DNA from: Bacteroidales bacterium
Lineage (GTDB): Bacteria > Bacteroidota > Bacteroidia > Bacteroidales > Marinilabiliaceae
NCBI GenBank assembly: GCA_024401395.1
Contig: JAKSLD010000001.1
Location: 124,001 to 188,000 of the forward strand
DNA length: 64,000 nt
Direction of reading: 5' to 3'
Shown in pieces: positions 4,783 to 47,105 of the stretch; position 1 is the stretch's first letter; each line of letters starts with the position of its first letter. Position numbers and translations under genes: made by a program. The notes beneath the pieces were generated by a model. It worked only from the letters and a program-made list of their open reading frames with translations, was not told the DNA's origin and did not search any database.

Positions 4783-7700
4783 TTACAAGCCTACGCGAAG
4801 TGTACATGTGAACTGCTTTGGAGTTGGAGCTGCAACACCACCAGCATTGAAGAACTCAGGATCCTGACCGTTGAGCTTGTCATCAGCATAGATGAGGAAG
4901 AGGTTTGTAGCCTGGAGCTTCACAGAAAGGTCTGTCATAGTCAACTTCTCACATATTGCTTTAGGGAACTGGTATGCGAGAGAAATCTCCTTCATACGTA
5001 CGAAATCGCCCTTAGCAACACGTGCTGTAGAATAGTTGTAAGCGTTGTAAGCGTATCTCAAATATGAATCATTTGTATTCATACGCTTTGTAGCGATAAC
5101 TGGGATATCTGTCTTGTTCTCATCACCAGAAACAGTCCAACGATTCTTGAACTCACGTGGTGTAGACTGCAAGTCAGTGTATCTAGCACTGAATACAGGA
5201 TCGAGACGGATTACATTGCCACCAGAGTATGTGATGAATACGTTAAGCTTCAAGCCCTTCCAAGTAAATGCGTTACCGAATGAACCAGACCATGTTGGAT
5301 CTGTAGGACCCTCATATACAAGGTGGTCTTTCTTTACACGCTCCTGGAAGAAGATATCACTTACTGTCAACTCACCCTCTTCGTTGATGAATGTTGGGAG
5401 ACCATCCTCGTTCAAGCCCTTGAAGTCCATAGAGTAGAGGCTTCGTACAGGAGAACCCTTCTGTGTAAAACCAGCACCTGTAATCATATCAATTACGCGA
5501 GAGTTCGAGTCGAATCTTGTAACCTCTGTCTCTGTCTTAGAGAAGATGAAGTCTGTAGTCCAACGGAAATCCTCTGTCTTGATATTTGTTGTAGAGAGTG
5601 TAAACTCGATACCGTGGCTCTCCATGTTAGCTACGTTAGCATACTTGTCGATCTGACCGCCGATACCCATCGTAGTGATTTTACCGATAAGGTCGAAGTT
5701 CTTTCTCTTATACCAGTCGAAATCCAAGTTGATTCTGTTACCGATGAAGCCCAATGAAGCGCCCAAGTTGAGCTCGTGCTTCTTCTCGTATGTGAGTTCG
5801 CTATTCTCGAGGTCGTATATTTCAAGACCACTCTCTGCTGTATTTGTAGAAGGTCTCCAAGGGTTATAAGCTTGGATAACGACACGAGAGTTTGTTACGT
5901 TAGAAGGACCGCGGTCACCAGTCAATGAGTAAGAACCCTTCAAAGTAGCTGTGCTGAGGATATCCTGATTATTGAACCATTCCTCCTCATGAGCATTCCA
6001 TGCCAAAGATACGTTCCAAGTAGGCAACCAACGAGCCTGACGGCTCTTACCGAGGCGGTTAGTACCCTCGTAACGAACTGTACCATTCACTGTATACTTA
6101 CCCATGAAAGAGTATGTACCTGTAGCGAAGAAAGCCTGAGCACGAACACGTGTCTCATCTACTGTGAAGTAGTCTGTATTCTCCTCCTTAGCCTGCTTGA
6201 AGTACTCATACTGATAAGCTGCGAGCATACCCATCTCGTACTGCATACCAACACCATTGAACCATGTCTTCTTACGGTCAGCAGCATTGAGTTCCATACC
6301 ACCGAAGAAGTTAACGATATGCATATCATTGAAGCTATCGTTGTATGTTACAGTGGCACGAACGTCCCAAGAGTTCATGGTGTACTTTGTCTCCTTGTAG
6401 AAACCACCACGCTCCAAAACTGAGATTGGCAATGAGTTTACATCGTCTGGGTTCTTATACAACCAGCTGTTATTGTCACGCATTGTAGCGTCGTCCATTG
6501 CGCGGAATGCCATAGCCTGGTTAGAATAGTCCTTAATCTCATGAGCCTGAGTAGAACCAGAATACTTATAAGCAACCAAACCAGACAACTCGATCTTAGA
6601 GACAGGCTTAACCTTCAACTCGCCCTGGAACTTCATATCAAGAACATTGAACTTCATGTAGTTGTTCTCCAACTCGTTCAAGATATTGAAGTCGGCATAG
6701 TTTCTCTTGTAATATGCATTTGGATCAAGTGCGCGAGAAGTATTCAAAGAATAAGAGTATGGGTTGATATCGAAATCACGCTTAACCTCACCATATACCG
6801 CGTCGACATCCTGACCGAGTGTACCAGGAGCCTCCTGCTTACGATAAGCACCGTTACCGATTAAGTTCAATGACACATACTTGTTGATATTGTACAATGC
6901 ATTGAGGTTCATTGTGAAACGGCTAACCTTACTCTTCTTGTACCATCCTGGGTCAGACATCAAAGACATTGATGTATAGTAAGATGCCTTATCTGTACCA
7001 GAAGTCATTGAGATAGCATGCGAGTGAGATACTGTATTGTTGAACAAGAGGTCGAACCAGTCAGTATTTCTCATCTCACACTCCTGGAGGTATGCGTTCT
7101 TAGCCTCCTCAGTGTTAGCCAACTCATACTTACCTGTAGAAGGATTGTAAGTGTTGATCAATCTGTACATACGGCCATATACACCGCTATCGCTCTTTCT
7201 CATAACGTCGCTGAAGTTGAGGTAACCAGCGTGCTCCAACTCACGGTAGACATCCATCTGCTCCTGAGAGTTCATGATGTTAAAGTTACGGTAGCTAGGC
7301 TTGAGACGGTATGTATACTCGCCTGTATAAGAGATATGGTTTGTACCAGCCTTACCTTTCTTTGTTGTTACAACGATCACACCTGCCATAGCGCGTGCAC
7401 CGTAGATAGAAGTAGCGGAACCATCCTTCAAGATCTGGAAGCTCTCGATATCATCAGAGTTCAAACCAGCGATTACTGAAGAAATCAAAGTCTCGGCATC
7501 ACCCTTAGAGAGGTCATCAGCGCTTACCTCAGTAACATCCTCCATGATTACACCATCTACAACCCAGAGAGGCTTAGAAGAACCATAGATTGAAGTAGCA
7601 CCACGGACACGGATCTTAGGAGCTGTACCGAAAGTACCAGATACGTTCTGAACGCTCACACCAGCTGCACGACCTTCGAGGGCACGAGAGATCTCAGGTA

Positions 7701-8103
7701 CACCATCGAGCATTACGTCCTGTGCTGAAAGTTTTGTTGTGGCACCAGTAAAGAGACGCTTGTCCATAACATGCATACCTGTTACGACAACCTCCTCGAG
7801 TTCCTCAGAATCTGTCTTCATAGTAACATTGTACACAGAAGTCTGAGCATTAAGGGCAATTTCACTATCAGCGAAACCTACGAAACGCACAACGATTGCT
7901 TCTGCGTTCTGAGGCACTGTAAGTGTGAAGTTACCATCAAAATCAGTAATTGTTCCGGTAGTCGTACCTTTTACCACTACCGAGGCTCCTGGGATAGGAA
8001 GCCCATCGTCTCCAATGACGTTACCCTTAATTGTCCTAGACTGTGCGAACACCAGCATACAATTAAGCGCCAACAGAGACAAAAGAACCATCAGTTTTTT
8101 CAT
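4783..8103 (-). CDS. SusC/RagA family TonB-dependent outer-membrane transporter
   Basis: The open frame extends upstream to 8247, but the ATG at 8101-8103 starts a normal signal peptide (MKKLMVLLSLLALN, cleavage after VFA-Q), giving 1,106 residues, the usual SusC size. A carboxypeptidase-D regulatory-like domain follows (GLPIPGASVVVKGTTTG, about residues 30-110). Next comes a TonB-box-like LEEVVVTGM, a plug with the IRVRGATSIYG and LWVVDGV signatures, and a long beta-barrel ending in an aromatic-poor VGL. It imports ligand captured by the adjacent SusD using TonB energy. It is the first gene of the operon, with a promoter at 8214-8243. Confidence 0.92.
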   Translation of the reverse strand: MKKLMVLLSLLALNCMLVFAQSRTIKGNVIGDDGLPIPGASVVVKGTTTGTITDFDGNFTLTVPQNAEAIVVRFVGFADSEIALNAQTSVYNVTMKTDSEELEEVVVTGMHVMDKRLFTGATTKLSAQDVMLDGVPEISRALEGRAAGVSVQNVSGTFGTAPKIRVRGATSIYGSSKPLWVVDGVIMEDVTEVSADDLSKGDAETLISSVIAGLNSDDIESFQILKDGSATSIYGARAMAGVIVVTTKKGKAGTNHISYTGEYTYRLKPSYRNFNIMNSQEQMDVYRELEHAGYLNFSDVMRKSDSGVYGRMYRLINTYNPSTGKYELANTEEAKNAYLQECEMRNTDWFDLLFNNTVSHSHAISMTSGTDKASYYTSMSLMSDPGWYKKSKVSRFTMNLNALYNINKYVSLNLIGNGAYRKQEAPGTLGQDVDAVYGEVKRDFDINPYSYSLNTSRALDPNAYYKRNYADFNILNELENNYMKFNVLDMKFQGELKVKPVSKIELSGLVAYKYSGSTQAHEIKDYSNQAMAFRAMDDATMRDNNSWLYKNPDDVNSLPISVLERGGFYKETKYTMNSWDVRATVTYNDSFNDMHIVNFFGGMELNAADRKKTWFNGVGMQYEMGMLAAYQYEYFKQAKEENTDYFTVDETRVRAQAFFATGTYSFMGKYTVNGTVRYEGTNRLGKSRQARWLPTWNVSLAWNAHEEEWFNNQDILSTATLKGSYSLTGDRGPSNVTNSRVVIQAYNPWRPSTNTAESGLEIYDLENSELTYEKKHELNLGASLGFIGNRINLDFDWYKRKNFDLIGKITTMGIGGQIDKYANVANMESHGIEFTLSTTNIKTEDFRWTTDFIFSKTETEVTRFDSNSRVIDMITGAGFTQKGSPVRSLYSMDFKGLNEDGLPTFINEEGELTVSDIFFQERVKKDHLVYEGPTDPTWSGSFGNAFTWKGLKLNVFITYSGGNVIRLDPVFSARYTDLQSTPREFKNRWTVSGDENKTDIPVIATKRMNTNDSYLRYAYNAYNYSTARVAKGDFVRMKEISLAYQFPKAICEKLTMTDLSVKLQATNLFLIYADDKLNGQDPEFFNAGGVAAPTPKQFTCTLRVGL

Positions 8104-8213
8104 CCTGTTTGATAAATTAAGAGAATTATTTTCGTAAATAGTGTAACTATTCACAACACTAAAAATAAGAGGTTTTATATGTTCCCACACAAAAGTATAT
8201 GGAATACATGATG

Positions 8214-8243
8214 CAAAGATACACTCAATATTACGAATACAAA
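8214..8243 (-). promoter_or_regulatory. Promoter of the first SusC operon
   Basis: On the minus strand TATCTTTG (plus positions 8214-8221) fits TAnnTTTG and TTTG (8240-8243) sits 18 bases upstream. Transcription would begin near 8207, giving a leader of about 100 bases before the ATG at 8103. This also supports the internal start chosen for the SusC gene, because the longer reading frame would begin upstream of the promoter box. Confidence 0.6.
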
Positions 8244-8364
8244 GCAAAGCACGCTATTTTTATATTATTTTAACCCGAACATATACCTTTTTCGGCTACT
8301 ACCCCCCTTTTTAACTAACAGTTTCTAAGAATAAATACCACTTTTGCTTAATAACTCTCACTTT

Positions 8365-8731
8365 GGAATGCGTACATTCTATGAGACTACATCATAGTCG
8401 GAATACCAAGGCTAGTCTCGGGCTACACTCGGTCTACTCTCGGAGAAGACCCTTGTTCATCGCAATTTTTTTTATTGTGAAGTGTATTTCTACGTCCTAT
8501 CTGTGTCTTACGTGCGTCCGTTCTGCGTCCGATGAAGTACCTTGTTCATCGTAATTTTTTTATTGCGAAGTGTATTCCTGTGTACTATCTGTGTCTTACG
8601 TGCGTCCGTTCTGCGTCCGATGAAGTACATTGTTCATCGTAATTTTTTTATTGCGAAGTGTATTCCTGTGTACTATGTGAGTCCTATCTGTATCCTATGA
8701 GGTACCTTGTTCATCGCAGTTTTTTTAATTG
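8365..8731. repeat. Tandem hairpin plus 11-bp repeat array, locus 1
   Basis: The 594-base gap between the divergent SusC and transporter genes holds no gene, only this array. A block beginning CCTTGTTCATCGCA, followed by a T tract, starts at 8451, 8540, 8628 (first bases CATTGTTC) and 8705. Unit lengths are 89, 88 and 77 bp, plus a 27-bp partial unit. Within each unit the TTCA and TGAA arms pair around the T tract. The rest breaks into degenerate 11-mers such as TGTGTCTTACG, TGCGTCCGTTC and TGCGTCCGATG. Upstream of the first block, 11-mers such as TAGTCTCGGGC and TACACTCGGTC continue back to about 8365. The same family recurs at 26483-26811 and 41931-42046. Confidence 0.85.
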
Positions 8732-8841
8732 GGGGCAAAAGAAAGAACAGCAGCCGAGCACACTATTCTGGCGCCAAAACGAGAAATAACAATATTATTT
8801 CGTAATTTTACCAGCCGTAAACAATACAAAGCGAAAGACAA

Positions 8842-10167
8842 ATGAAGCGAGAAGGTTTCAATAGTAAAGTAGGTGCAATAGCGGCTGCGGCAGGATCGGC
8901 TGTCGGCCTTGGCAATATCTGGCGTTTCCCGTATGTAACGGGAGAAAACGGCGGTGCTGCATTTCTGCTGTTATACATCTTCTTTATGGCCATCATAGCG
9001 TTACCGGTATTGATGTCAGAGTTCTCCATTGGGCGTATGACAGGCAAACCAGTGACAGAAGCATTCAGGAGTCTATCTCCAAAGGGGTATTGGTATTGCA
9101 TTGGTTTTTCCGGTGTGGTATGCGCCTTTGTCATAATGTCGTTCTACAACGTCGTAGCCGGTTGGACCATGTATTATGTATACCTCTCAGTCACCGGCAG
9201 GCTTCAAGGTCTAAATCCAGAAGAGGTATCTCAGACATTTGAGCATACGATGACCGACCCATTGATATCCATATTCTGGATGATCATAATGCTATCACTC
9301 ACCGGGTATGTAGTAGCCAGAGGCGTATCGAAAGGCATAGAGAAGTACAGCAAGATACTCATGCCGGTACTATTGATTCTCATCATAGTAGTCTGCATCC
9401 GCTCGATAACACTAGACACAGAGAACAAAGGCATAGCGTTTCTTTTGGCGCCTGACTTCAGTAAGATATCAATGAAATCGGTCCTTGAGGCATTAGGGCA
9501 GGCATTCTTCTCGCTCAGCCTTGGCATGGGCACTATGACGACCTACGGATCGTACATTTCCAAGAAGCAGAATCTACCAAAGAGTGCAGTCAGTGTAGCG
9601 ATGATAGACTTTTTCATTGCGTTCCTAGCCGGACTAATGATATTCCCTTGTGCCTTTGCGTGCGGAGTCAACCCAGGCAGCGGTCCGGGACTGGTATTTG
9701 AGACACTGCCTAATGTATTCAACCAGATGCCGATGGGATACCTCATCAGCGTGGTATTCTTCCTACTGCTGGTTGTAGCGGCAGTCACATCATCCATATC
9801 GATGCTTGAGGTACTGGTAGATTTCATGATATCGAAATATAACATGAAGCGTCCACGCGCTACGGTAGTAGCAGTATCACTGACGATTCTTCTTGGCATA
9901 GGGTGTGCGACATTCTCACCTATGCTAGACTTCTTCGATAATCTGTCAGCCAATGTATTGTTGCCATTAGGCGGATTCTTCATCATACTCTGCGTTCCAG
10001 TCTGCATCGGTGCGAAGAGAATGCGTGCAGAGATGGAAGCGCACGGTGGCAAATTCAAGTTGTTCCCTGCATTCTACTTCCTTGCAAAGTGGGTAGCACC
10101 TTGGGCAATATTATTCATATTCATATCAAAGATGCTATCCTGGATGGGCATAGAACTATTCAATTAA
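8842..10167 (+). CDS. Sodium-dependent transporter, neurotransmitter:sodium symporter (NSS/SNF) family
   Basis: The 441-residue polytopic protein has the family signature at its start: GAIAAAAGSAVGLGNIWRFP is the unwound first transmembrane helix that binds sodium and substrate, followed by GENGGAAFLL. About 11 to 12 hydrophobic segments can be traced, the usual number for bacterial LeuT/MhsT-like members. These carriers take up amino acids or related solutes across the inner membrane with sodium. The substrate cannot be read from the sequence. The start ATG directly precedes the conserved KREGFNSK. A weak -7-like TAATTTTA lies at 8803-8810. The helix-hairpin-helix gene follows by 40 bases on the same strand, without an intervening terminator. 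Confidence 0.92.
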   Translation: MKREGFNSKVGAIAAAAGSAVGLGNIWRFPYVTGENGGAAFLLLYIFFMAIIALPVLMSEFSIGRMTGKPVTEAFRSLSPKGYWYCIGFSGVVCAFVIMSFYNVVAGWTMYYVYLSVTGRLQGLNPEEVSQTFEHTMTDPLISIFWMIIMLSLTGYVVARGVSKGIEKYSKILMPVLLILIIVVCIRSITLDTENKGIAFLLAPDFSKISMKSVLEALGQAFFSLSLGMGTMTTYGSYISKKQNLPKSAVSVAMIDFFIAFLAGLMIFPCAFACGVNPGSGPGLVFETLPNVFNQMPMGYLISVVFFLLLVVAAVTSSISMLEVLVDFMISKYNMKRPRATVVAVSLTILLGIGCATFSPMLDFFDNLSANVLLPLGGFFIILCVPVCIGAKRMRAEMEAHGGKFKLFPAFYFLAKWVAPWAILFIFISKMLSWMGIELFN

Positions 10168-26420: not shown

Positions 26421-26482
26421 GTCAATCCAACCCACATTAAATTACGACCACAACAAATTACCCCAGAAACAACTCTCTCTAT

Positions 26483-26811
26483 AAAAAAATTACGATGAAC
26501 AAGGTACTTCATCGGACGCAGATTGGACGCACGTAGGACACAGATAGGACACAGGAATACCCTTCACAATAAAAAAACTGCGATGAACAAGGAACTACAC
26601 AGGATACAGACACGACCCATAAAGGACATAGAAATAACCTTCACAATAAAAAAACTGCGATGAACAAGGAACTACATAGGATACAGACACGACCCATAAA
26701 GGACACAGAAATAACTTTCACAATAAAAAAACTGCGATGAACAAGGGTGCTCTCTATGACTAGCAAGGGACTAACGTAAGACAAACATATGACTAGCGGC
26801 TAACCGACAAA
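26483..26811. repeat. Tandem hairpin plus 11-bp repeat array, locus 2
   Basis: This array fills most of the gene-free 532 bases between the DUF6057 gene and the GH10 gene. An A tract plus CTGCGATGAACAAGG (first copy TTACGATGAACAAGG) begins at 26483, 26571, 26648 and 26725, giving periods of 88, 77 and 77 bp, the same sizes as at 8.4 kb. Relative to the 8.4-kb array it is in the opposite orientation. Between cores lie 11-mers such as GACGCAGATTG, GACGCACGTAG, GACACAGATAG and GATACAGACAC. After the last core the 11-mers ACTAGCAAGGG, ACTAACGTAAG and ACAAACATATG continue to about 26811. Confidence 0.85.
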
Positions 26812-41930: not shown

Positions 41931-42046
41931 TCCTGTTGCGTTTTATAAAAAACTGCGAGCAACAAGGACACTCTATATAGGCAGCATATAGGCATCATAG
42001 GACCTCAATACGACCTGCAAAGGCTCAGACATCTACGTTCTCATTT
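41931..42046. repeat. Hairpin plus 11-bp repeat element, locus 3
   Basis: This single unit lies in the 561-base gap after the ompH-like gene. The core on the plus strand is an A tract, then CTGCGAGCAACAAGG (ending near 41967). It has a longer complementary arm upstream: GTTGC (41935-41939) pairs with GCAAC. The following 11-mers include ATAGGCAGCAT, ATAGGCATCAT, AGGACCTCAAT and ACGACCTGCAA. A more eroded copy may follow at 42092-42140, where ACAAT, an A tract and ATTGT repeat the same layout. Between this and 42244 nothing else is seen. Confidence 0.7.
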
Positions 42047-46716: not shown

Positions 46717-46854
46717 CTATCTCCACGAAGTGTTGAATAAGCTAAATACACCGGATAGGGATGTATCCAAAAGACAGTGTTTGACATAAGCAAATTGGGT
46801 ATCAACATATACGATGCAAAGTTACTATGTTCCCAAACGGCGCTGTCCCGTTCT

Positions 46855-46914
46855 GGCGCGATTTGGCGCGATTGCGCACGATTTGGCGCGATTGCGCACG
46901 ATTTGGCGCGATTT
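46855..46914. repeat. Degenerate 10-bp GC-rich tandem repeat
   Basis: Six contiguous 10-mers alternate between GGCGCGATTT, GGCGCGATTG and CGCACGATTT, giving a 20-bp higher-order period. The island is GC-rich in AT-rich surroundings. It lies in the gene-free 530 bases between the AsmA-family gene and porP, which otherwise holds two copies of GCAAAGTTA (around 46816 and 47012) and the hairpin at 47106. Confidence 0.85.
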
Positions 46915-47105
46915 GTATTTTGTTGTCAACTTATTTCAGGAAATACAGATTTATGGATTTACTTAGATAACCAGAAGATAATTTAGTTTGTCGATAAAGT
47001 GCAAAGTTATGTCTGTATTAAGGGAGCGTTAAGGATGTGTTAAGAGAGGTATAAGCAAAAGATACAAGAGAGTTATCTAAAGTTTTATTGTTGCAGCCAT
47101 TGCAA

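Follow-up and report, generated by a model that had tools for sequence, protein, structure and literature searches.

Dispersed arrays of 11-bp repeats in a Bacteroidales genome and a linked family of small basic proteins

Three directional arrays of degenerate 11-bp units lie within a 64,000-nucleotide stretch of a Bacteroidales contig (the window), and similar arrays are dispersed through the genome from which it comes. A multicopy gene family specifying a small basic protein is linked to them, many of its members having an array directly upstream. We consider it probable that arrays and genes belong to a two-part mobile or selfish family, whose protein would bind DNA in 11-bp steps. One part would be the array, ending in the core TTGTTNNTCGY and a T tract, and the other the gene with an array directly upstream of many of its copies. 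In what follows G000 is the genome of the window, and G008, G010 and G011 are the other array-rich genomes of the same genus.

The coordinates of the arrays in the window and of the genes flanking the first of them (locus 1) are collected in Table 1. A preliminary description had placed four cores in locus 1, starting at 8451, 8540, 8628 and 8705 with spacings of 89, 88 and 77 bp, and these positions are exact; the core at 8628 [CATTGTTCATCG] differs by one base. It also had 11-mers running upstream of the first core, which is true of about four blocks (8409–8452) but not back to 8365. A search of the window with TTGTTCATCGNANTTTTTT, allowing up to three mismatches, returned nine matches against 0.18 expected, a number reached in none of 100 shuffles. 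In the second array the cores are preceded by 11-mers such as GTTTGTCTTAC GTTAGTCCCTT GCTAGTCATAG, and in the third approximately five 11-mers stand upstream of the GC-type core. For the symporter-like gene that locus 1 precedes, the 1.5 kb upstream contain no CA- or GC-type core in G008 or G010; in G011 the closest one is 1.3 kb off. Elsewhere in the window (46854–46915) there is a tandem repeat of the 20-bp unit CGATTTGGCGCGATTGCGCA, present in 2.8 copies at 100%.

Table 1. Arrays in the 64,000-nucleotide window, and genes flanking locus 1
Feature	Position	Strand	Description
Locus 1 array	8409..8728	+	four 11-mers; three units (89, 88 and 77 bp); final core with its T tract
Core block 1, locus 1	8453..8463	+	TTGTTCATCGC, 11 bp, CA type
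Core block 2, locus 1	8542..8552	+	TTGTTCATCGT, 11 bp
Core block 3, locus 1	8630..8640	+	TTGTTCATCGT, 11 bp
Core block 4, locus 1	8707..8717	+	TTGTTCATCGC, 11 bp, followed by AGTTTTTTTAA
Second array	26482..26800 (left end approximate)	-	four cores, spacings 77, 77 and 88
Third array	~41940..42022 (ends approximate)	-	GC-type core TTGTTGCTCGCAGTTTTTT at 41965-41947
SusC-like outer-membrane gene, other side of locus 1	4783..8103	-	context; named by reading, without family search
Sodium:solute symporter-like gene, downstream of locus 1	8842..10167	+	context; named by reading, without family search

The core is itself an 11-mer, TTGTTNNTCGY, with AATTTTTTTAT after it. CA-type and GC-type cores (TTGTTCATCG and GGTTGCTCGC) represent the same 11-bp block in the same register, and this block is in register with the other 11-mers rather than a separate part, which corrects the preliminary description. 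Alignment of every exact TTGTTCATCG in the G000 loci fetched (123 cores) gave AGAGAAGTCCC-TTGTTCATCGT-AATTTTTTTAT, with weaker 11-mers upstream. The T-tract form follows 98 of these 123 cores, and several copies in G011 have an A tract in its place.

Autocorrelation at 11 bp, put forward in the preliminary description as a check on the repeat, was assessed over the 66 nt that precede the first core in each of 85 clusters in G000. Self-match at lag 11 was 0.443, compared with 0.261 in shuffled sequence (z = 28), and it was raised also at lags of 22, 33 and 44. Downstream of the cores self-match was weak (z = 3.5 at lag 11 and 5.0 at lag 22), and 117 spacers lacking a core gave z = 4.7 at lag 11. 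Fourier analysis of information content around the 123 cores did not single out 11, the strongest signal being at 10, and is not relied on here. Successive same-strand cores up to 250 bp apart, in loci from the four genomes, are spaced by exact multiples of 11 in 54 of 59 cases (31/34, 15/17, 6/6 and 2/2 by genome). The suggestion that units change in length by one 11-mer is borne out at one orthologous site, which measures 77 bp in G000 (L114) and 66 bp in G008 (L159), a difference of exactly one 11-mer. Since 11-mers adjoining in one array are more alike than those from different arrays (0.571 vs 0.390; 0 of 2000 permutations), the arrays probably grow by local duplication. With its many copies and whole-11-mer steps, the repeat thus agrees with its earlier portrayal as a composite of 11-mers belonging to no familiar named element. 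At another site (L111 in G000, L167 in G008) arrays occupy one shared intergenic spacer in reversed orientation.

The preliminary description stood to be refuted by a lack of further genomic copies, or of autocorrelation above that of shuffled sequence, and it withstood both checks: G000 contains 163 exact copies of the 12-mer CCTTGTTCATCG and none of its reversed control. The core sequence GTTNNTCGYARTTTTTT occurs 220 times in G000, 111 in G010, 76 in G008 and 26 in G011, and not at all in the 11 other same-genus genomes of the 15 compared. The arrays are intergenic: 82 of the 85 clusters in G000 fall outside called genes in sequence of which 84% is coding, according to rough gene calls from our own hexamer script. 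The placement of locus 1 between divergent operons holds there but is not general, divergent genes flanking 24 of the 85 clusters; 27 have neighbours oriented (-,-), 19 (+,+) and 11 (+,-), three lie within a called gene and one has no neighbour on one side. Array orientation relative to the neighbouring genes is mixed.

Most of the named records in which the core occurs are MAGs of Bacteroidales from horse faeces. Beyond related MAGs the core was matched in Synergistales (L027) and Symbiothrix (L033), and also in the MAG S22M_St_71. No match to 316 bases of locus 1 was found by blastn among plasmid and phage records. Viral contigs gave no occurrence of the core pattern, and a protein search of them produced 86 pattern stretches and no relative. 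The symporter-like proteins of the four array-rich genomes are 88–93% identical and the next genome stands at 75%, so by sequence the four are probably one clade; for this reason the co-distribution of arrays and genes described below counts as one event, and its counterpart in G005 and G006 as a second.

Two other repeats were seen beside the arrays in G000. A sequence with CTCCTGCGTCGCTTTCGT.AACCACCGCCTTCGGGGAT lies upstream of arrays or of an array remnant at L066, L067, L095 and L240, and looks like another dispersed element. A dispersed hairpin, approximately AAGAGGCTGTGTC..GACACAGCCTCTT, is found just downstream of arrays at L042, L046, L096, L099 and L111 and may constitute a repeated terminator family.

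The linked genes, which lie outside the window, encode basic proteins of 142–186 amino acids. A search with a 159-aa member gave 29 matches in G000, 21 in G010, 17 in G008 and 10 in G011, some of them fragments, and three weak matches in the other 11 genomes of the genus. A profile of 41 rows returned 27, 20, 16 and 10 matches respectively, again with some fragments, together with weak distant matches in G005 (4), G006 (3) and G012 (1) and none in the other 64 of the 71 genomes of the taxonomic family. Arrays and genes are therefore found in the same genomes. In G012 the distant homologue is accompanied by neither of the two cores tested. Across the 41 rows 23 residues are invariant, mostly Arg, Lys, Trp and small residues; there is a nearly invariant Tyr, and D57 is the sole nearly invariant acidic residue. 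An invariant His is absent from eight of nine distant homologues, and no obvious catalytic set was recognized. In 14 pairs of our choosing, which include copies from different species, dN/dS was 0.04–0.22.

Homology searches did not assign the protein to a family. Pfam, queried with seven members, yielded no convincing match; a Defensin_3 match to one protein (18.3 bits against a cut-off of 18, over 17 residues) was judged spurious because the other family proteins lack it. None of six members reached a cut-off in NCBIfam, and PHROGs, likewise queried with six, returned weak matches only, the best being to phrog_10348, annotated as of unknown function [E = 0.0097, residues 1–47]. Four matches in a profile search of the PDB, led by an engineered TPR protein [E = 0.001], were taken as chance. 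C-terminal parts have apparently been swapped between clades (L058 vs L227 and L202 vs L201), with nucleotides matching to the stop codon, which suggests recombination among family copies.

From 73 matches we examined 43 distinct copies, the rest having not been fetched or having been dropped for sharing their last 60 residues; L241 and L199 were excluded from these counts as too distant or partial. A same-strand core lies within 330 nt upstream of the gene in 28 of the 43, an opposite-strand core upstream in four, a same-strand core downstream in one and an opposite-strand core downstream in none. By way of control, a core was found upstream of 2 of 25 genes in the window and of 48 of 405 genes in loci selected for arrays. 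Fifteen of the 43 copies have no same-strand upstream core. Within subfamilies the distance from core to ATG is fixed; in five copies, for example, the ATG stands 66 nt after the start of the match. Between core and ATG, 17 of the 28 have a TAnnTTTG site (1.7 expected by shuffling), which we take to be a promoter-like motif of Bacteroidetes. In CA-type gene copies (L194–L196, L205, L209, L217 and others) a shared GTAACCTT..CGTATAAG-like sequence is placed after the T tract and ahead of the start codon. Six core types, assigned in 28 labelled rows, can be placed on the protein tree with five changes, the fewest that six states allow, as is expected from physical linkage alone.

Array and gene also recur together as a unit. 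A 673-bp block of G000 comprising an array and a 159-aa ORF has counterparts in G008 and G010 that match it at 95% and are flanked on either side by sequence unrelated to G000, G008 and G010 being collinear with each other there (97%). The G000 site which matches the G008/G010 unit holds a decayed remnant in which core and N-terminal half are missing. The intact copy lies some 12 kb away on that contig, so local rearrangement could explain this L110-like case. Units with common array and gene and unrelated flanks include the pairs L230/L231, L232/L233 and L234/L235 in G000 and, between species, L110 vs L172/L181. In three of these four comparisons similarity stops at the stop codon, give or take a few bases; in L230/L231 it continues for some 130 bp beyond. 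No target-site duplication was seen by eye in L234/L235, and site comparisons gave no clean empty site. At L098/L179 the array is absent from G010, and at L207/L047 it is present in both genomes and the gene in G010 only; at both sites divergence of the flanks prevents exact borders from being drawn.

Another 11-bp core, GTACGTGTTTC, accompanies the distant homologues in G005 and G006. Its 15-letter form GARAGTACGTGTTTC is dispersed in these genomes (23 copies in G005, 10 in G006) and missing from the other 13 of the genus; a 17-letter form matched once in each. The gene-linked matches of the 15-letter form are not independent, since it was derived from upstream sequences already seen. Among eight homologues in the two genomes the second core lies upstream on the same strand in four and on the opposite strand in one; at L257/L288 of G005 it is upstream of the gene on the opposite strand. 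Ahead of the G005 copies stand different 11-mers that keep to the register (CTAYGGTATCC occurs five times in L289), and for 21 of the 23 the self-match is strong (z = 13.0 at lag 11, 9.5 at lag 22); in G006 the 11-bp period is not significant (z = 2.2, n = 10). In this second lineage core and 11-mers have changed, and the gene link and, in G005, the 11-bp step are kept. A third 11-bp motif, [CT]G[CT]GTCAGTGG, stands upstream of family genes without the usual core at L208 and L212 in G011, where 11-mer-like steps precede it, and at L239 in G000.

The persistence of an 11-bp step through unrelated sequences suggests a protein contacting one face of the DNA about once per turn, and the co-distributed basic protein would be the obvious candidate. 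The putative role in DNA architecture or protein binding inferred in the preliminary description is now backed by a gene family that shares the distribution of the arrays and often has one upstream. We suppose that the family protein nucleates at the core, binding helically phased 11-bp steps, and spreads from there along the array, where it would control its own promoter. The number of paralogues, their low dN/dS and the variable flanks would fit selfish multiplication. Array-plus-gene units would be selfish or mobile and make copies of themselves. Solo arrays, such as the three in the window, would be their non-autonomous derivatives, gaining or losing whole 11-mers in place. More tentatively, and with rather less confidence than in a mobile or selfish family as such, we might propose a new class of selfish element in which a small non-enzymatic protein nucleates at an 11-bp core and polymerises along a phased array, its lineages having swapped the core and kept the 11-bp step, and which spreads both as array-plus-gene units and as solo arrays changing by one 11-mer.

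The intergenic position of the arrays, their location upstream of the promoter-like sites of the gene copies, and the low dN/dS, copies from different species included, would also be consistent with a regulon, with the protein serving as a transcription or nucleoid factor and the arrays as its operators at many host promoters, under selection at the level of the host. Several arrays indeed occupy the same spacer in two species, although such shared sites are ascertainment-biased, most loci from these draft genomes, and both sets compared here, having been fetched by the core. We regard a regulon as unlikely. Its arrays would have to be reconciled with copy numbers which differ widely among related species and with the lack of a consistent orientation to neighbouring genes, and a selfish family better accommodates both the 10 to 27 matches to the protein family in each genome, many of which have arrays of their own, and the units with unrelated flanks.

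Should the small protein instead represent a new class of recombinase or transposase, cutting or joining DNA at the array, the arrays would be its ends. The units do have the array as their left end and for the most part finish on the right close to the stop codon, and their copy number, conserved coding sequence and conserved Arg, Lys, Trp and Tyr residues are what such an enzyme might show. Against this, there is a recognizable element on the left side only, a single acidic position is nearly invariant, the otherwise invariant His is lost from most distant homologues, and no convincing nuclease or recombinase match was obtained (the PHROGs endonuclease VII match of one protein has E = 0.058). 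We think an enzymatic function improbable.

The hairpin which the preliminary description saw in the core is no feature of the family, and a transcribed RNA element or an array of intrinsic terminators is accordingly very improbable: three of the 123 G000 cores pair an exact CGATGAA arm with TTCATCG ahead of the T tract, 6-of-7 pairing of the arms is near chance (29% vs 23% in shuffled sequence), a second possible stem, around the T tract, reaches twice its shuffled frequency though just 15% of cores (vs 7%), the window has no Rfam match at gathering score, and the A tracts of G011 do not fit a terminator.

Like the known classes of dispersed repeat, the arrays are intergenic, scattered and linked to a gene family, yet we give very little credence to their being REP/RAYT elements (REPtrons) or MITEs. 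REPs are described as palindromes of 20–40 bp that carry a GTAG or CGTC tag, those of the GTAG class going with HUH/tyrosine transposase genes (PMC3733652). The linked protein here has no transposase-family match, and the Y1_Tnp domain (PF01797) is absent from G000, G008 and G011 and matched once in G010. There is no family-wide palindrome of 20–40 bp and, around locus 1 (8100–9000), there are no inverted pairs of at least 12 nt, hence no terminal inverted repeats of a MITE. The resemblance to REP/RAYT lies in the many short dispersed repeats and a gene bearing the same repeat beside it (PMC3733652), whereas here the repeat is an 11-bp phased array without palindrome and the 10–27 matches per genome are to an unrelated protein. 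No description of the repeat was found in the literature searched, most subscription journals being outside its scope, and a query with the 10-letter core listed apparently unrelated matches.

Porphyromonas gingivalis likewise belongs to the Bacteroidales. Its BrickBuilt element is described as a minisatellite-MITE with a 23-bp unit, present in 19 copies in one strain, whose leader and tail hold small inverted repeats; the abstract does not mention a linked protein family (PMC4596501). Both elements have tandem direct repeats within a dispersed intergenic element. Unlike BrickBuilt as portrayed there, the arrays have degenerate 11-bp units, some 200 cores, a linked gene family and, at locus 1, no inverted ends.

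The closest precedent we found for binding in 11-bp steps is ParR/parC. It is reported that parC usually consists of direct repeats upstream of parM, that ParR of plasmid R1 needs at least two 11-bp repeats, and that this small protein binds them and the DNA wraps around it (PMC9426499). Here, too, 11-bp direct repeats form an array that precedes a gene. Unlike the partition locus, which as presented there is on a plasmid and accompanied by the actin-like ParM, the present arrays are dispersed on chromosomal contigs. ParR is a ribbon-helix-helix protein, whereas the protein considered here has no family match and is known from its sequence alone.

Neither part of the system fits a known family in the libraries searched, and it is in that sense categorically new, although its REPtron-like logic could be held to say otherwise. 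To our knowledge the combination of array and gene matches no known system. Array and protein are found together in two groups of species, in the second of them with a different core. Should the protein indeed bind in 11-bp steps, the family would offer a chromosomal, many-copy system for the recognition of phased arrays, a model for array growth by exact units, and a case of a small gene multiplying without a recognised transposase, and its dozens of natural protein-site pairs could serve for studying how DNA recognition changes.
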